Of a stretch of DNA of 64,000 nt, positions 8,666 through 39,190 are shown in pieces; within the stretch, counting starts at the first letter, position 1, and the number at the start of each line of letters is the position of its first letter. The stretch comes from Acidibrevibacterium fodinaquatile (GTDB taxonomy: Bacteria > Pseudomonadota > Alphaproteobacteria > Acetobacterales > Acetobacteraceae). Under the pieces are notes generated by a model. The model saw only the letters and a list, made by a program, of their open reading frames with translations, did no database searches and was not told where the DNA came from. Location: the NCBI RefSeq assembly GCF_003352165.1, contig NZ_CP029176.1:3231501-3295500 (forward strand), read 5' to 3'. Position numbers and translations under genes: made by a program.

Positions 8666-10491
8666 GCCGAGCCCATGCGTGCGGCGCGCGCGGCGCGCGA
8701 CAATGTCGCCGCATCGGCTTGCGGCAGGGCAAGAAACGAGACTCCCATGGCCGCGGCGAGCTCGCGCGCGAAAGGATGCGGCCAGCGCGCGGTATCGATC
8801 AGAACGCCAGAACTCCCGCGCGCGCGAAGCGCCGCGGCCGCGGCGCGCGCATCGGCTTCGGCCCGCGCGCGCAAAGGCGCCCCATCGCGCGCGATATTGG
8901 CGCGGCCATCGGTGAGCACCACCACGGTCGCGCTCTCGCCCCGCCGCTGGGCGGCGATCACCAAGCCGCGCGCGACATCCAAGCCCGCCGCGAGCGGCGT
9001 CGCGCCGCCGCCCGGCAAGGCCGAAAGCGCGCGCCGCGCCCGCGCCAAAGCATGGGTCGGCGGCAACAGCACCTCCGCGCCCTGCCCACGAAAGGCGACC
9101 AACGCCACCTGGTCACGACGCACATAGCACTCGCCGAGCAAAAGCTCGACGGCGCCTTTAGCCTCTGCAAGGCGCTCGAAGGCGGTCGAACCCGAGGCGT
9201 CGACAACGAAAATGGTCAGCGTCGCGGCCGGTTCGCGATACCGGACGACGCGAAAATCCGAATGCCGGACGAGCACATGCCCGCCATCCTTGCCGCGCCC
9301 CGCGGCATCGCGCCGCAACGGCTGCCAGGGGGCGGCCGCGCGCAGGGTTGCGATCACATGCAAGCGCTTGCCGCCTCTCGGCTCACCCCGGGAGACGCCG
9401 ATCGGCCGCCCGCGCTTCGCCTCGCTGCGTGTCGCGCCGACCCGCCCGACCGCACCCGCGCGGCTGCGAGAGAGCTTGCCCCCCGCCCCGGCCAGCAAGC
9501 CCGGCGGCAGATGCGCGCGCACCGCCGCCAGAATCTGCGCGGCCGAAGGGGGGCTTTCGCTCTCGCCCGGGCGGGCATGATCGTCTTCTTGCCGGCGGCC
9601 ATCGTCGGCTTCCCCTGGAGCCGGTGCGCGATTGCGGCTCGCATCTTGGTGCTTCTCGGCGGGCGGATTTTGTGCCTCCGCCACCGCCTGCGGGGGAAGC
9701 TGGACCGCGCGCGGGGCCAGCACCAAACGCGCCGCGATCGTGACATCGGCCTCGTCGATCGCGCGCTTACCGGCGAGTGCCGCATGGCCGCGCGCGGCAC
9801 GCAATGCGAGAAGCGGGGCGCGCAAGGAATGGATGCCGAGCGCCGCTGCGATCTCGCAAAGCGCGCCGAGCATCGCCTCGCTCGCCCCAATCGCACCAAC
9901 GCTACGCCGCGCCGCCGTGATCGCTTCCGGGTCAGCGCGGGGCCAAATCATATCGCGCGCCGCGATATCGGAAAAATCGAGCCTGAAGGCAAGATGCTCG
10001 CCGAGCACCGCGGGAAGGCGTTCCTCCTCATTGAGGCCCTCATCGAACGCGAGAACGCCGATGCGCGCCGGCAGGCGGCGGCTGAGCCCATCGCGCGCAA
10101 GAGCCACCGCACCAGTATCGAGCGCTTGGGCAAGGCGCGCGGCGGTCGCGACACTGAGGCGCTCGGCCATCAGGGCGATCACCACGCCGCCATCGCTCTC
10201 GGCAAGCAAGCCGCGTTCGGCGATCTCGTGGCCGGCGGCGAGGGTCGCGCTGAGATCGAGCCCGCCCAATAGACGGTCATCGCCGATCATCGGCGGCATT
10301 TTGCGTATCGTCGTCGCCGGCGCGAGATGCGCGCGCCAAAACGCGAGCCAGCGTTCGCGGAGCGGGCCATTCTGCGCGCGAATGACGGCGCCGGTACCAC
10401 GCGGATCGAGGGCGAGGAGGCGGGCGGCGAGCAAGGCGTCGGGCAGCGCGGCCGCGGGTGGCGTTGCCGCGTACCAAGCGCGCCCGCTCAT
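8662..10491 (-). CDS. bchD: Magnesium chelatase subunit D
   Basis: The 609-aa D subunit of Mg-protoporphyrin IX chelatase, acting with BchI and BchH in the first committed step. The N-terminal AAA+-like domain is degenerate, without a clear Walker A. A Pro/acidic linker is near residues 280-320. The C-terminal von Willebrand A domain has the MIDAS motif 'VVDASGSTA' and 'VVVLTDGRAN'. Start and stop overlap bchI and bchO by 4 nt each. Confidence 0.95.
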   Translation of the reverse strand: MSGRAWYAATPPAAALPDALLAARLLALDPRGTGAVIRAQNGPLRERWLAFWRAHLAPATTIRKMPPMIGDDRLLGGLDLSATLAAGHEIAERGLLAESDGGVVIALMAERLSVATAARLAQALDTGAVALARDGLSRRLPARIGVLAFDEGLNEEERLPAVLGEHLAFRLDFSDIAARDMIWPRADPEAITAARRSVGAIGASEAMLGALCEIAAALGIHSLRAPLLALRAARGHAALAGKRAIDEADVTIAARLVLAPRAVQLPPQAVAEAQNPPAEKHQDASRNRAPAPGEADDGRRQEDDHARPGESESPPSAAQILAAVRAHLPPGLLAGAGGKLSRSRAGAVGRVGATRSEAKRGRPIGVSRGEPRGGKRLHVIATLRAAAPWQPLRRDAAGRGKDGGHVLVRHSDFRVVRYREPAATLTIFVVDASGSTAFERLAEAKGAVELLLGECYVRRDQVALVAFRGQGAEVLLPPTHALARARRALSALPGGGATPLAAGLDVARGLVIAAQRRGESATVVVLTDGRANIARDGAPLRARAEADARAAAAALRARGSSGVLIDTARWPHPFARELAAAMGVSFLALPQADAATLSRAARAARMGSA

Positions 10492-26964: not shown

Positions 26965-27741
26965 ATGCCAAAAGGTGCGATCACCGGTTATATCGACGTT
27001 GCCCAGCTCACGCTGTATGCGTTCTGGATCTTCTTCGCCGGACTGATTTATTACCTCCACCGCGAGGATAAACGCGAGGGATATCCAATGATTTCGGATA
27101 ATCCGGACGCGCCCGCCCGGGAGGGATTTCCACCAATGCCAGTCCCGAAAATATTCTTGCTGCCGCATGGCGGAACCCAGAGCGCCCCGCGCCAAGAGGT
27201 CGCACGCAAGGTCAATGCCGCACCCGCCTATCCGTGGTCGGGCTCGCCGCTCGTCCCACTCGGCAACCCGATGCAAGATGGCATTGGCGCTGCCGCCTAC
27301 GCCGACCGCGCCGAGGAGCCGGAGCTGACATTCGAAGGCGAGCGGCGCATGGTTCCACTCCGTGTGGCGAATATCTATTCCGTGCACCCCGATGATCCGG
27401 ATCCGCGCGGCATGGAAATTGTCGCAGCAGACGGTGTGATTGTTGGAGCCGTCACTGATTTGTGGATCGATCGCAGTGAGCCGCATATCCGCTACGTCGA
27501 AGTTACGCTTGCGGCCGCGGCCCCGCCACGGACGGTGTTGGTGCCCATGCTTTACGTCGATCGGATCGAGCGCGCGAGGGGTCGTCTCTTGGTCAGTGCG
27601 ATCACATCAACTGATTTCCTTGCTATCCCGCCGCTCAAGGATCGTGACCAAGTGACCGCGCGCGAAGAGGACAAGATCACCGCATATTTCGCTGGGGGCT
27701 TCCGCTACGCAACGCCCGATCGGCAGGAGCCGCTGCTATGA
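26965..27741 (+). CDS. puhA: Reaction centre H subunit
   Basis: H subunit (258 aa), with one N-terminal transmembrane helix (about residues 12-31) followed by 'YYLHREDKREGYP' and a cytoplasmic beta-rich domain ('GVIVGAVTDLWIDRSEPHIRY'). It caps the L-M core on the cytoplasmic side and guides protons to QB. GAGGTG ribosome site 7 nt upstream. The stop overlaps puhB. Confidence 0.96.
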   Translation: MPKGAITGYIDVAQLTLYAFWIFFAGLIYYLHREDKREGYPMISDNPDAPAREGFPPMPVPKIFLLPHGGTQSAPRQEVARKVNAAPAYPWSGSPLVPLGNPMQDGIGAAAYADRAEEPELTFEGERRMVPLRVANIYSVHPDDPDPRGMEIVAADGVIVGAVTDLWIDRSEPHIRYVEVTLAAAAPPRTVLVPMLYVDRIERARGRLLVSAITSTDFLAIPPLKDRDQVTAREEDKITAYFAGGFRYATPDRQEPLL

Positions 27742-28388
27742 GTGAGAAAATGCCGATTGTGCCGCATGGCCTCCCGGGGCCGCTACCTGCAGGGGAGACC
27801 ATACTTTGGCAGGGTGCACCTTCGTGGAAGCTATTGGCGAGGCGCGTTTATCACCTCCCGATGATTGGTCTCTATTTCATTGCGTTGCTCGTCTGGCGTG
27901 AGGCGATAGCGCTTTCCGGCGGCGGCACCTTGGTGGACGCGCTCAAGGCTGGCGGTGCGGCGCTCGGTCTCGCGATGGTAACGCTCGGGCTGCTTCTCGC
28001 CTTGGCACGGCTTGTCGCGCGGAGTACGGTTTACACGATCACGTCGCAAAGGCTCGTCATTCACTGCGGTATCGCCCTTTCGGTGACGCTAAATTTGCCC
28101 TACCGCTTGATCGACGCCGCTGAGCTCCGTGATCATCGCGATGGCAGCGGCGACATTTCGCTGACCCTACGCAAGGGAGAGCGCATCAGCTATCTGATGT
28201 TCTGGCCGCACGTCCGGCCATGGCACCTCAATCGGGTCCGCCCCGCTCTGCGACAGATCGAAAATGCCTCGCAGGTCGCGCAGTGTCTCGCGCGCGCGCT
28301 TGCCGCCGATGCGGCGCAGCCCGCGCCAACCGTGCCACAAAGCGTGCGCGCGGCTGACAGCGTTTCGGCCGCGGTGGCGCCAGCATGA
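27738..28388 (+). CDS. puhB: PuhB reaction-centre assembly protein
   Basis: Membrane protein (216 aa) needed for reaction-centre assembly. It starts with a soluble 'GPLPAGETILWQGAPSWKLL' segment, then three hydrophobic helices and a PH-like domain ('TVYTITSQRLVIHCGIALSV'), followed by a 'YLMFWPHVRPWHLNRVRP' tail typical of PuhB. Overlaps puhA and puhC by 4 nt each. Confidence 0.92.
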   Translation: MSEKMPIVPHGLPGPLPAGETILWQGAPSWKLLARRVYHLPMIGLYFIALLVWREAIALSGGGTLVDALKAGGAALGLAMVTLGLLLALARLVARSTVYTITSQRLVIHCGIALSVTLNLPYRLIDAAELRDHRDGSGDISLTLRKGERISYLMFWPHVRPWHLNRVRPALRQIENASQVAQCLARALAADAAQPAPTVPQSVRAADSVSAAVAPA

Positions 28389-28843
28389 GCAGGACCGCTT
28401 CCCCTTATCGCGCGTTTCCAAGCGGGCCCTTGGTCGCCTGTGCGGCCCTGATTACCGTCGCGATCGGCGCCGCGGCGCTCGGGGATTGGCGCGGCATATC
28501 GAGCGCCGTGCCCCGCTCGGCACCGCTCGTAAGCCGGCCGATTCAGTTTGTCGACCAGCCGGATGGCGCAATTAGGGCGCTCGATGCAGCGACGCGGCAG
28601 GAGATTATGATTATCGCGCCGGGAACCAATGGTTTCTTGCGCGCGACCCTGCACGGCCTGGCGCGCGAGCGGCGCCGGGCGGGTTTTGGTCCACAGCCGC
28701 CGTTTCAACTCACTGCCTGGCGGGACGGGCGTCTCACCCTGACCGACTCGACGACGGGACGTCGTATCGAGCTCGAATCCTTCGGCCAAGACAATGAGGC
28801 CGCCTTTGCCCGTCTACTCACGAATGAGGGGAGACAGCCATGA
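28385..28843 (+). CDS. puhC: PuhC photosynthetic complex assembly protein
   Basis: Single-pass membrane protein (152 aa) with one helix near residues 18-36 and a periplasmic domain; required for normal LH1-RC organisation in Rhodobacter. Family wording 'FVDQPDGAIRALDAATRQEI' and 'GTNGFLRATLHGLARERR' is visible. Coupled by ATGA overlaps to puhB and to orf96. Confidence 0.9.
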   Translation: MSRTASPYRAFPSGPLVACAALITVAIGAAALGDWRGISSAVPRSAPLVSRPIQFVDQPDGAIRALDAATRQEIMIIAPGTNGFLRATLHGLARERRRAGFGPQPPFQLTAWRDGRLTLTDSTTGRRIELESFGQDNEAAFARLLTNEGRQP

Positions 28844-29130
28844 GCAGTGCGCGGAGAGAGTTCGATATTTCGTGTCGTGTAGATATCGAACAAAGCCCGG
28901 AGAGTTTACATGCCCACGCGATCCCGGAAGGGGTCTCGCTGCGGCCCGGCGACACCGTGATCGTGCATGGGGTGCCATCGACGGTAGCATTTGGTGAGCA
29001 CCTGGAAATGACATGCCGGGCGACTGTGTTCCGTGCCGGTATTTTTGAGCGCTTGTGGCTCCGGTTTAGCTCGCTTTTCGAACTGACCGAACTCTATGAG
29101 GTCGGCTTTCAACCCAAGGAGTTGGCATGA
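28840..29130 (+). CDS. Conserved small photosynthesis-cluster protein (orf96)
   Basis: Soluble 96-aa protein with no signal peptide or membrane helix. Similar small ORFs lie between puhC and acsF in other purple bacteria, but the function is unknown. It contains '[20 protein letters not shown]' and '[12 protein letters not shown]', suggestive of a small beta-barrel. Its start and stop overlap puhC and acsF (ATGA both sides), so its dose is tied to AcsF. A role in cyclase or reaction-centre assembly is inference. Confidence 0.75.
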
Positions 29131-30182
29131 TGTCAGCGATGGCTGCCCCGAATGAGGCGACACGTCTCGCCCAGCGCGATACCGTGTTGAGTCCGCGATT
29201 TTATACGACCGATTTCGCCGCGCTCGAGCAGATAGATATCACATCGGTACGCGCGGAATGGGACGCCGTGATGGCGGAATTTCGTCTCGATAAAAACAAG
29301 GGCCATTTCATCCGTAATGCCGAGTTCGACCTCGATCTCTCGCAAATGCCTGATGCGTTGCGCGAGGAATTTCTTGATTTTCTGATCAGCTCTGTCACCG
29401 CGGAATTCTCTGGCTGCGTTCTTTATGCCGAAATTAAGAAGCGCCTCAAAAATCCTGCTCTCAAGGAGTTGTTCGGCTTCATGAGCCGCGATGAGGCGCG
29501 GCATGCGGGCTTCATCAACGACACACTCAAGGATTTTGGCGTCGGCGTCGATTTGAGCTTCCTGACCAAGGCGAAGAAATACACCTTCTTCAAGCCGAAA
29601 TTTATCTTCTATGCCACCTATCTATCCGAAAAGATCGGCTATGCCCGCTATATCTCGATCTATCGCCAGCTCGAGCGCCATCCGGAATATCGCTTTCATC
29701 CGATTTTTAAATGGTTCAAGGAATGGTGTAACGACGAATTTCGCCATGGTGAGGCTTTTGCGCTTTTGATGCGCGCCAATCCTTGGCTACTCTCGGGCAT
29801 AAACAAACTCTGGATCCGGTTTTTTCTGCTCGCCGTCTTCGCGACCATGTATGTGCGCGATCACGGGCGCCCGGCCTTTCATCGTGCGCTTGGCATCGAT
29901 CCGGATGAATATGATTTGCAGGTATTCCGCATCACTTCGGCGATCGCAAAGCAGGTCTTTCCGGTGGCATTACCCGTCGACGATCCGCGCTTCATGGCTG
30001 GTCTGCGGCGTTTGCGAGGCATTTCCGACAAAGTCAGCCTGCTCAAATCCCGAGGGCCGTGGGCACGCGTGAAGCGGGCGGCACTCCTTGCGCGAGCCGG
30101 CGGAGTCCTGCTTCGCCTTTATCTGATGGCGCCAGAAAGATCAGCGCTCCCCGCAGAGGTACGTATGGCACCGACCTGGTAG
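29127..30182 (+). CDS. acsF: Aerobic Mg-protoporphyrin IX monomethyl ester cyclase
   Basis: Diiron oxygenase (351 aa) forming the isocyclic ring E with O2. Iron-binding motifs are DEARH at residues 122-126 and DEFRH at 203-207, with an upstream Glu in '[13 protein letters not shown]'. No anaerobic bchE lies in this window, so pigment synthesis here is oxygen-compatible; bchE may be elsewhere. Start overlaps orf96. The fused puhE gene follows after 18 nt. Confidence 0.96.
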
Positions 30183-30200: not shown

Positions 30201-32036
30201 GTGAACCACTATGTTTTTCCCGCCCTATATGCGCTTTTTGTCTGGTGGTTTAGCACCGGGGTGATCATTTATCTCGATGGGCTGCCGCGCGCGACGTTTC
30301 GCTGGAGCATGATCGGCGCGACGATCGTCCTTGCGGCATCTTTGTATGGGCTTTGGGCCAGTAGCAAAATAGTGACGCTGGGTGGGCTCTACTGCGCTTT
30401 TACCACCGGTCTTCTCGCCTGGGGTTGGCAAGAGATTAGTTTTTACATGGGTTTCGTCACGGGCCCGCGACGTGAGCCCTGTCCCGAGAATTGTCATGGC
30501 TGGCGCCATTTTATTCACGCGATAGAGACAAGCCTCTATCATGAATTGGCGATCATTGTATTTGCGGTTGCAGTTATTGCGCTCACGTGGGGCGCGCCAA
30601 ACCATGTCGGTGCCTGGACCTTCATGATTTTGTGGTGGATGCACCAGAGCGCGAAGCTCAATGTTTTTCTCGGCGTACGCAATCTGAATGAAGAATTCTT
30701 GCCCGAGCATCTCGGCTTCCTGAAGAGTTTTTTAACCAAAAAGCCGATGAACCTGTTGTTTCCGTTTTCGGTAACGATATCGACGGTGATTGCTGCACTT
30801 TTATTCGAGGAAGCAGTACGGCCTGGTCAGTCGAAGTTCACCGCAGTGGGCGACGTGTTTCTTGGCACGATGATGGCACTGGCGATCCTCGAGCACTGGT
30901 TTTTGGTGCTCCCACTGCCAGCGGCGGCGCTATGGCATTGGGGTCTTGCCTCGCGCAAGGCGGCAGCGAAGGTTGATATCGAGGTTGTCGCGGGATTTCT
31001 CGGCGCTGGCAAGACTACGGTTTTGAGCCGCCTTCTCGCCGATGCGGATCCCGCGTTGCGCACCGTGGTGCTGGTCAATGATTTTGCGAGCGTGGGTGTC
31101 GATGGCTCGCTTCTCGCCGGGCGCGGCGCGGACATTGTTGAATTGCCGAATGGCTGTATTTGCTGCTCGCTCCGCCAGGATTTGGCGCGACAATTGCAGG
31201 AGACGCTGGCACGCTGGGCGCCGCAGCGCGTGTATATCGAACCAAGCGGCGTCGCCGACCTCGCATCCCTGATCAGCGTCCTCCATCAGGATCGCTTGCG
31301 GCCGCTGATCAGTGCTGTTCATGTGCGCGCCGTTATCGATGCTGGGGCATTTCAATATGATTTTGCCCGGATGCCTCGGCATTTCGAGGCGCAGATGGGA
31401 CTCGCGAACGATGTACTGGTCAACAAATGCGATCTGGTAGCGCCAGCAGAACTCCGCATGATCGCGGCGACGTTGGCGGCAATCAATCCCGGGGCGAGCA
31501 TTGTTCCCGCGCGTTTCGGCATGCCCTCGACGCACCAAGGCGATGCGGATGCGCTCGCCGCCCGCGGGGATGATATCGCGTCGCCGCCGAGGTCAAAATT
31601 AGCCGCCCGGCCCGAGCACATGCCGGCGGCAAAGGGCGCGCGGCATCACCACGAGCACGAACATACACATGAACGTAATGAGAACGCGGGGCACGAAGCA
31701 GATCATGCGCATGATTTAGATCATGGCCATGAGGCCGCGCTCGCTGGATTAACCGCATGGAGTGCAACCCTCGGTGGGGTGTGTCATCCGCTCGGGCTGG
31801 AAACGGTTCTGACTGCGGTCGCCGCCGGGAAGTTTGGGGCGGTGGAGCGGGTCAAGGGGATCGCGCGGAGCGGGGATGGCTGGGTTCGTTTCGATGTCGC
31901 TGGCAGGCGCTGGCGGGTTGCCGCGTATGCGCCGGGGAATGATGAGCAAGCGCGGGTTATCGCGATCGGGCGTTCGGTCGATGAGCCCGGCCTCGCCGAG
32001 GCGTTCAGGGCGTGCGTGATGTCGGCCTCGATGTGA
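30201..32036 (+). CDS. puhE: PuhE fused to a COG0523 (CobW/ZNG-type) GTPase metallochaperone
   Basis: A 611-aa two-domain protein. Residues 1-250 are PuhE, a seven-helix membrane protein of unknown role in complex assembly ('CPENCHGWRHFIHAIETSLY'). Residues 258-611 are a full COG0523 GTPase: Walker A GFLGAGKT (265-272), 'VNDFASVGVDG', the metal-binding CICC (319-322), 'IEPSG' (347-350), NKCD (408-411), a His-rich stretch with 11 His in 481-510, then a CobW C-terminal domain. There is no stop or frameshift between the halves. Start is GTG 30201 with GAGGA upstream. It sits 18 nt after acsF and before hemA. A role in metal delivery to AcsF or tetrapyrrole enzymes at the membrane is inferred. 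Confidence 0.9.
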   Translation: MNHYVFPALYALFVWWFSTGVIIYLDGLPRATFRWSMIGATIVLAASLYGLWASSKIVTLGGLYCAFTTGLLAWGWQEISFYMGFVTGPRREPCPENCHGWRHFIHAIETSLYHELAIIVFAVAVIALTWGAPNHVGAWTFMILWWMHQSAKLNVFLGVRNLNEEFLPEHLGFLKSFLTKKPMNLLFPFSVTISTVIAALLFEEAVRPGQSKFTAVGDVFLGTMMALAILEHWFLVLPLPAAALWHWGLASRKAAAKVDIEVVAGFLGAGKTTVLSRLLADADPALRTVVLVNDFASVGVDGSLLAGRGADIVELPNGCICCSLRQDLARQLQETLARWAPQRVYIEPSGVADLASLISVLHQDRLRPLISAVHVRAVIDAGAFQYDFARMPRHFEAQMGLANDVLVNKCDLVAPAELRMIAATLAAINPGASIVPARFGMPSTHQGDADALAARGDDIASPPRSKLAARPEHMPAAKGARHHHEHEHTHERNENAGHEADHAHDLDHGHEAALAGLTAWSATLGGVCHPLGLETVLTAVAAGKFGAVERVKGIARSGDGWVRFDVAGRRWRVAAYAPGNDEQARVIAIGRSVDEPGLAEAFRACVMSASM

Positions 32037-32086
32037 AACGCTATGGGAAGGAACCCGAATAGGTTCGCGAAGGAGTGATGAGCGCC

Positions 32087-33298
32087 ATGGATTATGAAGC
32101 GTTTTTTGAGGAAAAATTGGCCGCCTTGCAACGCGAAGGGCGTTATCGGGTTTTTGCCGATCTGGAACGCCGTGCCGGCCATTTTCCGCGGGCGACGCAT
32201 TATCGGCGGGGCGGCGGGTCGGAGGTCACGGTGTGGTGCTCCAATGATTATCTCGGCATGGGCCAGCATCCGAAAGTGATCGCGGCGATGCACGAGGCGA
32301 TCGATCGCTGCGGGGCCGGGGCTGGCGGCACGCGGAACATCTCAGGGACCAATCATTATCACGTCACCCTTGAGGCGGAACTCGCTGATCTTCACGGGAC
32401 CGCGGCGGCGCTATTGTTCAATTCGGGCTATATGTCGAATTGGGCGACACTGAGTACGCTCGGCCAAGCACTTCCGGGTTGTGTCGTATTGTCGGATGCG
32501 CTCAACCATGCCTCGATGATCGAGGGCATCCGGCAATCGCGGGCGGAACGAATCGTTTTTGCCCACAATGATGTCGCCGATTTAGCACGCAAGCTCGCCG
32601 CGATTGATCCCGCGCGGCCCAAGCTCGTCGCCTTCGAGTCGGTCTATTCAATGGATGGCGATATCGCGCCGATTGCCGAAATTTGTGACGTCGCCGAGAC
32701 CTATGGCGCGATGACCTATCTCGACGAGGTTCATGCCGTTGGGCTTTACGGCGCTCGCGGCGGCGGGATTTCCGAGCGCGAGGGAATAGCGGCGCGTTTG
32801 ACGGTCATTGAAGGGACGCTTGCCAAAGCCTTCGGCGTCGTTGGCGGCTATATCGCTGGATCGGCGGCCCTGTGTGATTTTATTCGCAGTTTCGCCTCCG
32901 GTTTTATTTTTACCACTTCTTTGCCCCCTGCCATTGCCGCGGGAGCGCTCGCCAGTATCCGCCATTTGAAGGAAAGCAATGAGGAGCGCGAACGCGTTGC
33001 CGAGCGGGTCGCGACATTGCGGCGCGAGCTTGACGCGATCGGCGTGCCGCATCTCGAAAACCCCAGCCATATCGTGCCGGTGATGGTGGGGGATCCTGTT
33101 CTCTGCAAGCGTATTAGTGACGAGTTACTCGAGCGGTTCGCAATCTATGTGCAGCCGATCAATTATCCGACCGTCCCGCGCGGCACCGAGCGGCTGCGGA
33201 TCACGCCGTCACCGCTGCACAGCGACGCCGATCTCGCGCATCTGGTCGATGCGCTCGGGACGATCTGGTCGGCATTGCGCCTGCGGCGCGCGGCCTGA
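32087..33298 (+). CDS. hemA: 5-aminolevulinate synthase
   Basis: PLP enzyme (403 aa) condensing glycine and succinyl-CoA, the alphaproteobacterial entry into tetrapyrrole synthesis. '[12 protein letters not shown]', '[17 protein letters not shown]' and the PLP-lysine motif '[17 protein letters not shown]' are present. The start is taken as ATG 32087 ([11 protein letters not shown]) with GAAGGAG 11 nt upstream; ATG 32078 or GTG 32075 would add 3-4 residues. Followed by hemC after 10 nt. Confidence 0.95.
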
Positions 33299-33308
33299 GG
33301 GTGTGAAC

Positions 33309-34361
33309 ATGGATATCAGCCAGCATGTGAGCGTCGCTCAAGCCCAAGCAACCCCACGGGTTTTGGTGCCGCCCCATCGTCGAGCACTCCCGCTCAGGGT
33401 CGGAACTCGGGCCTCACCGCTCGCGCTTGCGCAGACAAAGACGTTTCTTTCAGTGTTATCGGGCTTTTGTCCCGTTCTCCGTGATATGCCGGTGTTCGAG
33501 GCGCACCCCATCCGCACGACGGGCGATGCGTCGCAGGCAAGCGGGTGTCGTCTTGCCGATCTCGGCGGCAAGGGTTTGTTCGCCAAGGAGATCCATGAGG
33601 CACTCGCCGATGGGCGCATCGATTTCGCCGTCCACAGCTTGAAGGATCTCGAGACTGAGTTGCCGGCCGGGATCGTTCTCGCCTGCACCCTGACACGCGA
33701 GGATGCGCGCGATGTGCTCATTCTCCGAGATGATCTTCCTCGCTGGGGGCGCGCGGAAATCTCCGCGCGGGCCGAGGCGGGCGATGATCTCTGGGATTGT
33801 CTCCCTGATGGCGCGGTGATCGGGACATCCTCGGTGCGGCGGCAGGCGCAGCTTCTCCATGCACGGCCCGACCTGCAGATCAAAACGCTACGCGGCAATG
33901 TGCAGACCAGGATCGATCGCCTCGATCATGGTGATTGCGCGGCAACGCTCCTTGCGCTCGCGGGCCTCAAGCGGCTCGGTATCGCCGATGATCGGGCGAT
34001 CGTCATCGACCCTTCGGTGATGGTGCCAGCGGCGGGTCAGGGGATCATCGGCGTGACCGTGCGCGCCGATGACCATGAGCTTCGCGATCTTTTGGGCGCC
34101 ATCGAAGACCCTGAGGCGCGCGCCGTCTCCACCGCCGAGCGCGCTTTGCTCGCGGCCCTCGATGGCTCGTGCAAAACCCCGATCGGCGGCTATGCGCGGG
34201 TGAAGGAGGGGCGCCTTCACCTCACGGGCCTGCTTGCGCGCGAGGATGGCTCGTTTCTGGTGCGGCGAACGGTGAACGGCGTGATTTCAGAGGCGGCGGG
34301 GATCGGCTACGCGCTCGGCATGGAGCTTCGCGCCCAGGCACCGGCCGACGTGTTCGCATGA
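33309..34361 (+). CDS. hemC: Porphobilinogen deaminase
   Basis: Hydroxymethylbilane synthase (350 aa). 'LRVGTRASPLALAQT', 'FAVHSLKDLETELPAG', 'VIGTSSVRRQAQLL' and the dipyrromethane-cofactor Cys in 'DGSCKTPIGGYA' are intact. The N-terminal ~30 residues before the conserved core are longer than usual. ATG 33309 has a GAGGGTG ribosome site. Placement after hemA links precursor supply to the bch genes. Confidence 0.94.
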   Translation: MDISQHVSVAQAQATPRVLVPPHRRALPLRVGTRASPLALAQTKTFLSVLSGFCPVLRDMPVFEAHPIRTTGDASQASGCRLADLGGKGLFAKEIHEALADGRIDFAVHSLKDLETELPAGIVLACTLTREDARDVLILRDDLPRWGRAEISARAEAGDDLWDCLPDGAVIGTSSVRRQAQLLHARPDLQIKTLRGNVQTRIDRLDHGDCAATLLALAGLKRLGIADDRAIVIDPSVMVPAAGQGIIGVTVRADDHELRDLLGAIEDPEARAVSTAERALLAALDGSCKTPIGGYARVKEGRLHLTGLLAREDGSFLVRRTVNGVISEAAGIGYALGMELRAQAPADVFA

Positions 34362-35588: not shown

Positions 35589-36926
35589 ATGAACGCCCTT
35601 GATCTCGCTCAGCCAGATGTCATGCTAAGGCTCGATGATCAGGGGATCATTCGTGAGGCGAGCCTGTCCAATGCCGTCCCCGGCGAGGGAATCGGCGAAT
35701 GGGTCGGGCGCCGCTGGTCGGAAACGGTGGGCGGGCGCGGCGGCGAAGAGGTTCTGCGTCTCCTCTCATCGGCACGAAAATCTGGGGTTTCGCCGTTTCG
35801 CGAAATAGCCCAGCGTTTTCCGAACGGCCTCGAAATACCGATGGAATACACCGCGGTTCGCCTCGGCGGCAAAGCCGGCGTGATCGCCATCGGGCGCAAT
35901 CTACGCGCGGTCAGCGAATTGCGCGATCGGCTGATTGCGGCGCAGCAAGAGGTCGAGCGCGATCACTGGCGTCTGCGGCAAATCGAAACCCGCTATCGCT
36001 TGCTGTTTGATACATCGAACGACGCGATCGTCACCCTCGATGGCGCAACGTTGCGCCTCGTCGATGCGAATCCCTCGGCACACGTCGCCTTTGGGCTGAC
36101 GCCGGGCGATGATTTTCTTGCCCATCTCGCGCCGGCCGGGCGTGAGCGTTTCCGCGCCATGCTCGCGCGCGTCAAGGAGCAGGGAAAAACGCCCGGGCTT
36201 TTGCTGCATCTTGGTGCCGCGCGCAAACCCTGCGTGATCCGCGCATCACATATGCCAAGCGAGCCTGGCGCCATGCTGTTCCTCCTACACCTCGCGGAGC
36301 TTGGGGTGATGCGTGGCCAGGCCGGCCGGCAGCCACCGCCATCGGCCGACCGTATCATCGAGCGGCTGGGCGACGGTTTCGTGGTTTTCGATCGGCGCGG
36401 CGTCGTGCATCGCGCCAACCGGGCCTTTCTCGATCTCGTGGAGATGACCGGCGAGGAGGCGGTGATCGGGGAGATGATCGGCCGCTGGCTGATCGCACAG
36501 GAGGGCGACACCGTGGCCATGATCGCGGCCATCGAGCACCAAGGAGCCGAATCCCGCTTCAACGCCATCTTGCGAAACGAACACGGCGCGCGCTTGGCGG
36601 TGGAGATCACCGCCGCGGGTGACACCGACAATAAACCGATTTATTTCGGTGCCCTGGTGCGCGATCTGCGCCGCTCTGCGCCCGCCGCGGGGTGGGCGCC
36701 GCAGCACGCGCTTTTACCCCCCGGGGACGCGGATGAGGCGCCGCCGCTTCGCGATCTGATTCGCAACGCAACCCAGGCGATAGAGCGCTATTACATCGAG
36801 GCCGCGCTCGCGCAGGCCCGCGGCAATCGCACGCTCGCGGCCGAGCGGCTCGGGTTGAGCCGGCAGAGTCTCTATAATAAAATTGAGCGCTACGGCTTGG
36901 CGGGCGACACTGCGGGTCGGGAATGA
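35589..36926 (+). CDS. ppsR2: PpsR-family regulator, copy 2 (PpsR2)
   Basis: PpsR/CrtJ paralogue (445 aa): N-terminal domain, Q-linker ('AAQQEVERDHWRLRQIET'), PAS domains and a Fis-type HTH ending 'AAERLGLSRQSLYNKIERYGL'. The position of the redox Cys (Cys442 in copy 1) is Tyr402 here, in 'IERYYIEAAL'; its only Cys is Cys215. It is therefore unlikely to use the HTH-cysteine switch. Adjacent heme oxygenase and bacteriophytochrome genes suggest it is the light-controlled copy, as in Bradyrhizobium/R. palustris. Confidence 0.9.
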   Translation: MNALDLAQPDVMLRLDDQGIIREASLSNAVPGEGIGEWVGRRWSETVGGRGGEEVLRLLSSARKSGVSPFREIAQRFPNGLEIPMEYTAVRLGGKAGVIAIGRNLRAVSELRDRLIAAQQEVERDHWRLRQIETRYRLLFDTSNDAIVTLDGATLRLVDANPSAHVAFGLTPGDDFLAHLAPAGRERFRAMLARVKEQGKTPGLLLHLGAARKPCVIRASHMPSEPGAMLFLLHLAELGVMRGQAGRQPPPSADRIIERLGDGFVVFDRRGVVHRANRAFLDLVEMTGEEAVIGEMIGRWLIAQEGDTVAMIAAIEHQGAESRFNAILRNEHGARLAVEITAAGDTDNKPIYFGALVRDLRRSAPAAGWAPQHALLPPGDADEAPPLRDLIRNATQAIERYYIEAALAQARGNRTLAAERLGLSRQSLYNKIERYGLAGDTAGRE

Positions 36927-37021
36927 GCGCGCCCGAGCGTGCCATGCGCGCAAGCGTCGCGCTGGGGCGGTTTGCGGGGCGGCATTTGACCGGAGGGTAA
37001 TTTCAGCGGAACAGTGTGGGT

Positions 37022-39190
37022 ATGATGTCGTCGCAGGCTCATGCCCCGGCGTTTGGCGAAGCGGATCTCACGAATTGTGACCGCGAGCGGATCCAATATG
37101 CCGCCGCTATCCAGCCGCATGGCGCCCTTTTGGTGTTGCGCGAGCCGGATTGGATCGTGGTTCAGGCGAGCGCCAATGCCGCGGATTTTCTCGGCCTTCG
37201 GGCCTCGCCCGTCGGGCGGAAGCTGGCGCTGGTAGAGCCCGGCTTGGTCCCTTGTCTCGCGCGTGCGCTCACGCAGCCGCTCGACGTTATTCCGGTTGCA
37301 TTGCGCTGTATCGGCCGGAAAGGCCCCCTCGATTGCCTGGTCCATCGCCCGCCGGAGGGGGGTGTGATCCTCGAGCTCGAGCATGTTGGCCCGCGCCGCG
37401 ACGTCGGCGCGATTCTCGAGCCCGCCCTACAAACCATCCTCGCCGCGCCATCGCTTCGCAGTCTTTGCGATGAGACGGCGCGCTTGTTCAAGGATGTCGC
37501 CGGCTATGACCGGGTGATGGTGTACCGCTTCGATGATGACGGCCATGGCGAGGTGTTTGCCGAAGAGCGCGAGCCCCATCTCGAGGCCTATCTCGGCAAT
37601 TGGTATCCCGCCTCCGACATCCCTACCCTCGCCCGCAAACTCTATGAGCGCAACCGGGTGCGGGTTCTCGTCGATGTCGCCGCCGTCTCCGCGCCGGTCG
37701 CACCGCGCATATCACCGCTCAGCGGGAAGGAGCTCGACATGTCGCTCTGCTTCCTGCGCAGCATGTCGCCCATTCATATCCAGTATTTGCGCAACATGGG
37801 GGTGGTCGCGACCTTGGTCGTCTCGCTCATGGTGGGTGGCAAATTATGGGGGCTCGTTGCCTGCCATCATTATCAGCCGCGTTTCGTGCATTTCGAAACC
37901 CGCGCCCTCTGCGAGCTTTTGGCCGAGGCGGTGGCGACGCGCATCCTCGCCCTCGAGAGTTTTCTGCAGGCTCAGGCCGAGCTTTGGGTGCGTCGGCTCG
38001 AACAGCGCATGGTGGAGACCGTCTCGCGTAAGGGGGATTGGCGGATCGCCCTGTTCGACGGCTCGCAATCGCTGCTGCAACCGCTTGGCGCGTCTGGCGC
38101 GGCCTTGCTGTTCGAGGGCACGGTGATGACCGAGGGCGACGTTCCCGGAACCCAGCAAATCCGCGACATCGGCGCATGGCTCGACCAAAAGCCGCGCGCG
38201 CCGGTCTTTGCCACCCCCTCGCTCAGCGGCGAGGCGGCTGCCTTCGCGCCGCTGACCCCGGTTGCGAGCGGCGTCATCGCGGTTCCGATTTCGAACGCGC
38301 CCGGCGAATATCTCCTCTGGTTCCGCCCCGAGCGCATTCGCACCGTGACCTGGGGCGGCAACCCGTTCAAGCCGTTCGAAATCGGCAATGACCCCACCGA
38401 TCTCTCCCCCCGCCGCTCATTCGCGCAATGGCACCAGATGGTCGAAGGCACCTCGGCGCCGTGGACGCAAGCCGATCTCGCCGCCGCCCGCCTGATCGGC
38501 GAGACGGTCACCGATGTCGTGCTGCAGTTCCGCTCGCTGCGGATGCTGATCGTCCAGGACCAGCTCGAGACCGTGCGCCGGCAGATCCAGCTTTCCGATC
38601 AGCCGGTGATGATCGCCAGCCCCGAGGGCACGGTGCTCGCGTCCAATCAGGCGCTCGAGCGGCTGCTCGGCGATGTCCATCCGCGCTTGCAGCGGGTCGA
38701 GGATCTTTTGCTTTATGTCGCCGATGCGACCGATCTGCGCCGGCGCCTTCTTGATCTCCTCAAACATCATCGCGGCTGGCGAAGCGAGATCCGCCTGGAA
38801 ATCGAGGGGAGTGCCGCGAGCAGTTTGCTCTTGCGGGCCGACCCGGTCTTTGCCGCGCCGTCGCGGGTGCTCGGTTTCGTCTTACTGTTTACCGATCTTT
38901 CGACCCAGAAGGCCGCCGAGGCGGCGCGTGGCTTGTTTCAAGAGAGCCTCATCCAAGGCCATCGCCTGGGTCTCGGCAGCCTCGAGGGGCCGGCTGATCT
39001 GCTTTTTCGCAGCCTTTTTTCCAGCATGATCGAGAACGCGCAGCTCGCCGCCTGGGAAATCACCGATGCCGTCGAGACGGCGAAAATTCCGGAACTCCTT
39101 GCCAATCTGCGTCTTTCCGTACAGCGCGCGGCCGAGACGCTGGCGCATCTGATCCGCCACGAGACGGAATTTTCCGAGCGAGAAAACTGA
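37022..39190 (+). CDS. bphP: Bacteriophytochrome (BphP1-like)
   Basis: Far-red photoreceptor of 722 aa: PAS-GAF-PHY photosensory core, then a PAS domain and a helical C-terminal output region. The biliverdin-binding Cys is Cys19 in 'DLTNCDRERIQ'. GAF shows 'WYPASDIPTLARKLY' and PHY the 'PRRSF' tongue motif. I see no H-box or ATP-binding motifs of a histidine kinase, as in RpBphP1-type proteins that bind PpsR2 directly. Start ATG 37022 is one choice; GTG 37016 is possible. 95 nt after ppsR2. Confidence 0.92.
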   Translation: MMSSQAHAPAFGEADLTNCDRERIQYAAAIQPHGALLVLREPDWIVVQASANAADFLGLRASPVGRKLALVEPGLVPCLARALTQPLDVIPVALRCIGRKGPLDCLVHRPPEGGVILELEHVGPRRDVGAILEPALQTILAAPSLRSLCDETARLFKDVAGYDRVMVYRFDDDGHGEVFAEEREPHLEAYLGNWYPASDIPTLARKLYERNRVRVLVDVAAVSAPVAPRISPLSGKELDMSLCFLRSMSPIHIQYLRNMGVVATLVVSLMVGGKLWGLVACHHYQPRFVHFETRALCELLAEAVATRILALESFLQAQAELWVRRLEQRMVETVSRKGDWRIALFDGSQSLLQPLGASGAALLFEGTVMTEGDVPGTQQIRDIGAWLDQKPRAPVFATPSLSGEAAAFAPLTPVASGVIAVPISNAPGEYLLWFRPERIRTVTWGGNPFKPFEIGNDPTDLSPRRSFAQWHQMVEGTSAPWTQADLAAARLIGETVTDVVLQFRSLRMLIVQDQLETVRRQIQLSDQPVMIASPEGTVLASNQALERLLGDVHPRLQRVEDLLLYVADATDLRRRLLDLLKHHRGWRSEIRLEIEGSAASSLLLRADPVFAAPSRVLGFVLLFTDLSTQKAAEAARGLFQESLIQGHRLGLGSLEGPADLLFRSLFSSMIENAQLAAWEITDAVETAKIPELLANLRLSVQRAAETLAHLIRHETEFSEREN

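Follow-up and report, generated by a model that had tools for sequence, protein, structure and literature searches.

PuhE, a protein of obscure mechanism that carries the DUF3623 domain, is usual in the photosynthesis gene clusters of purple bacteria. A separate family, the COG0523 guanosine triphosphatases (GTPases) of the G3E group (YjiA, ZigA, CobW and Nha3), is characterized by a Walker A motif, a CxCC metal motif, an NKxD guanine motif, a histidine-rich linker and a C-terminal CobW_C domain. One account of this family links it to zinc, iron or cobalt, names few known clients and describes the C-terminal domain as predicted to bind or contact the target (PMC9164220), and histidine stretches are regarded elsewhere as a metallochaperone mark (PMC2770081). 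In a 64 000-nucleotide stretch of the Acidibrevibacterium fodinaquatile genome (contig NZ_CP029176.1, positions 3 231 501–3 295 500 of the forward strand; hereafter the window), we analyzed a gene at positions 30201–32036 in which the two are joined in a single frame. The fused protein shares all of the above motifs and domains with COG0523 GTPases, and with PuhE proteins it shares a score above the TIGR03055 cut-off, a position behind acsF among the puh genes and the invariant Glu and His residues. It differs from the former by a seven-helix membrane half and by forming its own clade on a long branch, and from the latter by the added GTPase and CobW_C domains, both of which are absent from 41 of the 62 classifiable PuhE genomes in the family of the window, the Acetobacteraceae.

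The frame runs uninterrupted on the forward strand from a GTG start to a stop at 32036, with 611 codons for 611 amino acids. Pfam assigned residues 1–254 to DUF3623 (E 2e-113; 378 bits against a cut-off of 27), residues 261–435 to the cobW domain (E 6e-39) and residues 519–606 to CobW_C (E 7e-8; 32.6 bits against 22), and the NCBIfam PuhE model TIGR03055 scored 328.2 bits, its curated cut-off being 164. The translation contains GFLGAGKT (residues 265–272), NGCICC (317–322) and NKCD (408–411) as well as 11 His within residues 482–510. A first-pass annotation made from the sequence alone had proposed one 611-codon PuhE–COG0523 frame with these motifs, the His stretch and a CobW C-domain; the open frame, its translation and the Pfam and NCBIfam calls confirmed all of these. 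In an AlphaFold model of the whole fusion (44 sequences), the mean predicted local distance difference test (pLDDT) score was 84.8 and the linker was disordered. The features of the gene are as follows.

30201–32036, + strand: PuhE–COG0523 fusion gene, 611 codons, GTG start
30201–30962, + strand: PuhE domain (DUF3623), seven long helices (pLDDT 93.3 when modelled alone), N-terminus out and C-terminus in by positive-inside counts
30432–30434, + strand: Glu78 of PuhE, third long helix, invariant (1.00 of 143 PuhE)
30540–30545, + strand: His114–Glu115 of PuhE, fourth long helix (0.99 and 1.00 of 143 PuhE)
30891–30896, + strand: Glu231–His232 of PuhE, seventh long helix, invariant (1.00 of 143 PuhE)
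30957–30992, + strand: spacer from the PuhE domain to the phosphate-binding loop (P-loop), 12–13 residues in 38/38 fused frames
30981–31505, + strand: COG0523/G3E GTPase domain (PF02492), by Pfam and structure search
30993–31016, + strand: Walker A motif GFLGAGKT, by translation and motif survey
31155–31166, + strand: CxCC metal motif (CICC), by translation and motif survey
31422–31433, + strand: NKxD guanine motif (NKCD), by translation and motif survey
31581–31739, + strand: disordered linker with 11 His (model pLDDT <50 at residues 461–513)
31755–32018, + strand: CobW_C domain (PF07683), by Pfam and C-domain tree

The fusion was not peculiar to the window genome. A search for PuhE–COG0523 fusions yielded at least 38 distinct fused frames, that of the window included, with 21 in Acetobacterales, 10 in Aurantimonadaceae and 7 in others, once 14 duplicate PuhE domains had been taken out of the loci up to L165. 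The end of the PuhE domain and the P-loop were separated by 12 or 13 residues in every one of them. As the two halves are joined identically in these 38 frames, which come from many different assemblies, a frameshift or assembly error near 30950–30980 was excluded, and the chance that two separate genes were joined artificially is negligible. The window gene is one of 10 of the 38 frames that have no in-frame ATG, GTG or TTG between the end of the seventh transmembrane helix and the P-loop, so that a complete GTPase cannot begin separately in it.

Walker A was found in all of the 38 frames, and CxCC, NKxD and an EPSG-type motif in 35 each; apart from two open frames considered below, motif gaps fell in one frameshifted locus (L099) and two that are cut (L010 and L110). 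The linker after the GTPase measured 17 to 149 residues across 34 complete frames, 27 of which had at least eight His in it, and CobW_C was present in 17/17 members of set A2. In Rhodovibrio sodomensis (L114), the His-rich linker is replaced by a short Gly-, Asp-, Thr- and Gln-rich tandem repeat. The frameshift in L099 lies inside the GTPase, near position 8943, of the fused puhE of Jiella pelagia, a complete genome. Genome G053 encodes two distinct fused genes (L008 and L258, the latter the same as L087), both counted among the 38; queries for other puh genes, acsF and hemA had no match on the 8.7-kb contig that bears the second.

We then compared the domains of the fusion with their stand-alone relatives. 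In a tree of 35 fused GTPase domains and 31 domains of stand-alone COG0523 proteins from the class (L010, L099 and L110 were left out because their domains were too short), the two sets were split by a branch of 1.15 with a Shimodaira–Hasegawa-like approximate likelihood ratio test (SH-aLRT) value of 100, which argues for one fusion event and a new COG0523 branch. The C domains of 34 full fusions and of 14 PuhE proteins with CobW_C only grouped together (SH-aLRT 100) against 20 stand-alone domains, these being the ones among the 31 stand-alone proteins that covered the model sufficiently. Of the C-only rows, L094 comprised just 31 residues of the domain. The C-only proteins (from Acetobacteraceae, Pelagibius and Geminicoccaceae bins), which differ from the fusion in having no GTPase domain, therefore carry the C domain of the fusion clade and most likely lost the GTPase. 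They fell in three places on the C-domain tree, with 11 in Acetobacteraceae and the others in Pelagibius and Geminicoccaceae, a pattern that suggests three separate GTPase deletions, of which the starred C-domain branches force just one label change. The PuhE tree required five changes of the C-only label, three of them forced by starred branches, and 14 changes for all labels together. These three trees, like that of the 44-row subset described next, are quick ones without bootstraps, that of the C domain having 101 columns, and they lack six further C-only loci of the order draw.

In an approximately unbiased test on 44 chosen rows of 143, a clade made up of full-fusion and C-only PuhEs alone was rejected (p 0.003). 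Unfused PuhEs thus lie among them, which would have come about if the entire tail was lost repeatedly or was transferred through recombination; we tentatively favour loss, many times over, after one old fusion. The ratio of nonsynonymous to synonymous substitution rates (dN/dS) was computed by domain for close pairs. For the GTPase it was 0.03–0.39 in 12 close pairs and 0.03–0.10 in 10 of these, indicating that the GTPase is maintained by purifying selection. The ranges were 0.035–0.32 for PuhE (11 of the 12 pairs with a value), 0.07–0.60 for CobW_C (12 pairs) and a looser 0.21–0.45 for the linker (6 pairs with a value). The pair L018/L064 gave the highest ratios for PuhE, GTPase and CobW_C, and its dS was oddly low.

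The distribution of the tail was surveyed in an even sample of 200 Acetobacteraceae genomes, 66 of which encoded PuhE as compared with 0/14 control genomes. Fifteen of the 66 had the full fusion (including G132, whose GTPase is interrupted by a contig end), 6 had CobW_C only, 41 had neither, and 4 were unclassifiable because their loci lie at contig ends (G074 and G026) or are fragmentary (G178 and G018). In a draw from the class, PuhE was above the cut-off in 27/385 genomes, and one (G297) of the 25 outside the family had the full fusion. We also scanned named genomes with a PuhE profile built mostly from fused proteins. Among the best 80 of 561 relatives, a set biased by this profile and selection towards fused-like PuhEs, the GTPase followed PuhE in frame at 28 loci, CobW_C only at 3 and neither at 49. 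The fused genomes included Acidiphilium rubrum (L090), Acidocella bins, Lichenicoccus roseus, Jiella, Fulvimarina, Aurantimonas, R. sodomensis and two Ferrovum bins, and three of the fused loci (L096, L110 and L143) stop at a contig end. A separate GTPase copy was not found in the flanks (up to 8 kb per side) of the unfused named loci, and a stand-alone GTPase of the fused clade was not seen in 32 genomes (23 unfused and 9 C-only), where the best match reached 171 bits against 505 for the window. No plasmid record matched the fused protein over at least 80% of its length.

Several further observations concern PuhE distribution. Four Rhizobiales PuhEs (L118, L120, L128 and L131) end in a short His-rich tail without GTPase or CobW_C, and the His-tail label on the PuhE tree covered two of these four. 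Proteobacterial-type PuhEs were found in records named as an Anaerolineae bin and Kouleothrix (L109 and L110), which are probably mis-binned contigs. None of the other genomes listed for the genus of the window (G062, G137 and G185) had a PuhE match, so that phototrophy looks patchy within this genus.

The seven long helices of PuhE allowed us to place the GTPase relative to the membrane. Mean numbers of Lys plus Arg per sequence in 58 PuhEs were 0.66, 2.17, 3.83 and 2.62 for the parts taken as inside and 0.36, 0.19 and 0.10 for the loops taken as outside; these counts place loops 1, 3 and 5 and the C-terminus inside, and the fused GTPase would hence be cytosolic. The membrane-tethered COG0523-type GTPase of the first-pass annotation is upheld to this extent, as a domain predicted on the cytoplasmic side and kept by purifying selection. 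Glu78, His114, Glu115, Asn154, Glu231 and His232 were conserved in 0.98–1.00 of 143 PuhEs, fused or unfused, and all of the conserved Glu, His and Asn positions fall in predicted helices.

We tentatively read the fused GTPase as a membrane-anchored G3E/COG0523 metallochaperone acting in cis on PuhE, at a probability somewhat short of even. Four lines point to PuhE as the partner: the single fusion event, the fixed spacer, the presence of CobW_C after loss of the GTPase, and the invariant Glu and His residues. Since CobW_C stays on PuhE without the GTPase and the distance from GTPase to membrane is fixed, PuhE would be the simplest client; retention of a C domain predicted to bind the target, in the cited account of the family (PMC9164220), fits this too. 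An ancestral cobW-type gene would have fused once to puhE. The GTPase would bind a transition metal at CxCC, with zinc likeliest from its relatives and iron or cobalt possible, the His-rich linker would store metal, and CobW_C would recognise PuhE. GTP hydrolysis would then release it in cis to PuhE, whose Glu78, His114, Glu115, Glu231 and His232 may form an intramembrane metal site; the metal state of PuhE would tune how bacteriochlorophyll is supplied for the assembly of complexes. Species with an unfused PuhE would manage with a general COG0523 protein or with no chaperone. The window genome itself also encodes CobW, two more COG0523 proteins and UreG, so that general metal chaperones exist beside the fusion.

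A number of results weigh against metal delivery to PuhE. The 41 of 62 family genomes with neither GTPase nor CobW_C show the tail to be dispensable, CxCC is absent from L021 and L119 though their frames are open (L119 also lacks the EPSG motif), 7 of the 34 complete frames have three or fewer His in the linker, and the C-only CobW_C domains are altered at some residues typical of full fusions. PuhE is not known to bind metal, and its conserved Glu and His could instead have a role in binding pigment, in catalysis or in packing. Foldseek with the PuhE model gave no match at E <0.001. Likewise, the best VIA-align match was a designed helical barrel (Z 7.3, root-mean-square deviation (rmsd) 5.0, 186 residues), uninformative for a helical bundle, and sequences of solved structures included no PuhE relative at E up to 1. 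DUF3623 has been reported not to share the transmembrane acyltransferase (TmAT) fold and was removed from that clan (PMC12423673). As a separate observation, L021/L125 has neither CxCC nor a His-rich linker although its GTPase frame is still open, perhaps an intermediate on the way to the C-only form.

The persistence of CobW_C without the GTPase, and the open frames of L021 and L119 without CxCC, could also be explained if the GTPase half were a GTP- and metal-dependent switch or sensor that sets the effect of PuhE on bacteriochlorophyll by zinc or iron status, with CobW_C alone able to maintain the interaction. We regard this as possible but rather unlikely, because the retention of CxCC in 35/38 frames and of the His-rich linker in 27/34 fits metal transfer at least equally well.

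The GTPase half was compared with characterized GTPases. Its highest-scoring partial hit in NCBIfam was CobW (TIGR02475), which would suit a true CobW role in supplying cobalt or cobalamin for BchE or B12 synthesis. The fused protein, however, scored 104.7 bits against the TIGR02475 cut-off of 332.1, a separate CobW above the cut-off (528.6 bits) is encoded in the same genome (L002), and BchE was above its cut-off in just 7/26 fused genomes, which makes this role very improbable. The fused protein was also distant from the zinc chaperone ZigA (NF038288; 84.6 bits against a cut-off of 600) and from the YjiA-type model PRK11537 (71.8 bits against 361). The structure search placed the GTPase with zinc-bound HypB, nickel UreG and zinc-bound YjiA, among other P-loop GTPases; it had the same fold as the nickel chaperone GTPases HypB (2hf8; Z 16.3, rmsd 3.1, 174 residues) and UreG (5xkt; Z 16.1, rmsd 2.9, 171 residues), both of which are soluble, have no CobW_C and serve other clients. 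On sequence grounds, the fusion is a membrane-anchored COG0523 subfamily and a new branch of that family.

The gene lies in a photosynthesis operon with the order PUCC (presumably lhaA)–puhA–puhB–puhC–orf96–acsF–puhE–hemA–hemC, whose neighboring genes are as follows.

26965–28843, + strand: puhA, puhB and puhC
29127–30182, + strand: acsF, oxygen-dependent cyclase, ending 18 nucleotides upstream of the puhE fusion
32075–33298, + strand: hemA, 5-aminolevulinate synthase
33309–34361, + strand: hemC, porphobilinogen deaminase

Farther downstream (35589–39190), a PAS/Fis-type regulator and a phytochrome inside the photosynthesis cluster suggest light-quality control.

The first-pass annotation had proposed diiron AcsF, Mg-chelatase or 5-aminolevulinate synthase (hemA) as clients of the GTPase. 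With acsF directly upstream of the fusion, the GTPase could deliver metal in trans to AcsF, PuhE merely anchoring it near the cyclase. In keeping with this, acsF accompanied the puh genes at 22/28 fused loci among the best 80 of 561 named loci, and AcsF was encoded in 28/29 fused genomes searched, as well as in 7/7 CobW_C-only and 1/4 unfused genomes. Nevertheless, acsF was about as common at unfused loci (37/49) and was present at all three CobW_C-only loci, so that its occurrence does not track that of the GTPase. AcsF is not supported as the specific client, and neither are Mg-chelatase and 5-aminolevulinate synthase. Five fused loci (L087, L107, L110, L114 and L143) had no acsF beside puhE, and L098 is truncated at that point. 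AcsF is encoded elsewhere in the genomes of L087 and L107, whereas the fused bin of L143 (G694) has BchE and no AcsF at all. With BchE above the cut-off in 7/26 fused (also 3/5 C-only and 1/2 unfused) genomes, no cyclase was common to all fused genomes. We consider delivery to AcsF unlikely and favour action in cis on PuhE.

The presence of a full fusion in A. rubrum raised the question of zinc-bacteriochlorophyll. PufL of A. rubrum has Glu instead of His at position L168, which we take to be a mark of zinc-bacteriochlorophyll acidophiles, although a literature search gave no paper for it. Among 30 genomes, the L168 equivalent was Glu in 7, all of them fused with CxCC intact, and His in 18 fused (including the window), 3 C-only and 2 unfused genomes. 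The Glu genomes were G096, G153 and G676 (of one code genus), two Acidocella bins, G023 and G667; their PuhEs formed one starred clade (SH-aLRT 98), and that of G096 was identical to the PuhE of A. rubrum. Their pufL loci (L210, L212, L213, L214, L220, L221 and L223) mark candidate zinc-bacteriochlorophyll users. Since 18 of the 25 fused genomes have His at this position, the fusion looks older than the Glu trait and cannot alone explain it, and Fulvimarina and Jiella, which are not known to be acidophiles, are fused too. Available accounts state that Acidiphilium makes zinc-bacteriochlorophyll by an uncertain route of zinc entry, the Mg-chelatase of A. rubrum inserting Mg and zinc being thought to come later (PMC4944227, PMC12654162). 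A supply of this zinc by the fusion in acidophiles, with metal exchange at or near PuhE, is highly doubtful, as ferrochelatase or chemical exchange could suffice and Acidisphaera sp. L21 is unfused, though its genus has been reported as a conditional zinc-bacteriochlorophyll maker (PMC12654162). The fusion is nonetheless a candidate in the zinc-pigment question. A joint reading, in which PuhE would be an intramembrane metalloprotein handling the bacteriochlorophyll metal or its own Glu/His site, loaded in cis by the GTPase, and would also be the missing zinc source in Acidiphilium- and Acidocella-type acidophiles, is quite improbable as a whole.

Among the papers listed in searches of the open full-text literature, no description of a PuhE–COG0523 fusion was found, most subscription journals lying outside this scope and domain databases possibly listing the architecture; the first-pass annotation likewise knew of no described example. 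By its persistence, and by the retention of CobW_C in several lineages that lost the GTPase, the fusion links PuhE with metal handling and gives it a testable job with named residues. It adds a membrane-anchored branch to COG0523 and places a candidate zinc-handling protein in the photosynthesis operon of A. rubrum.
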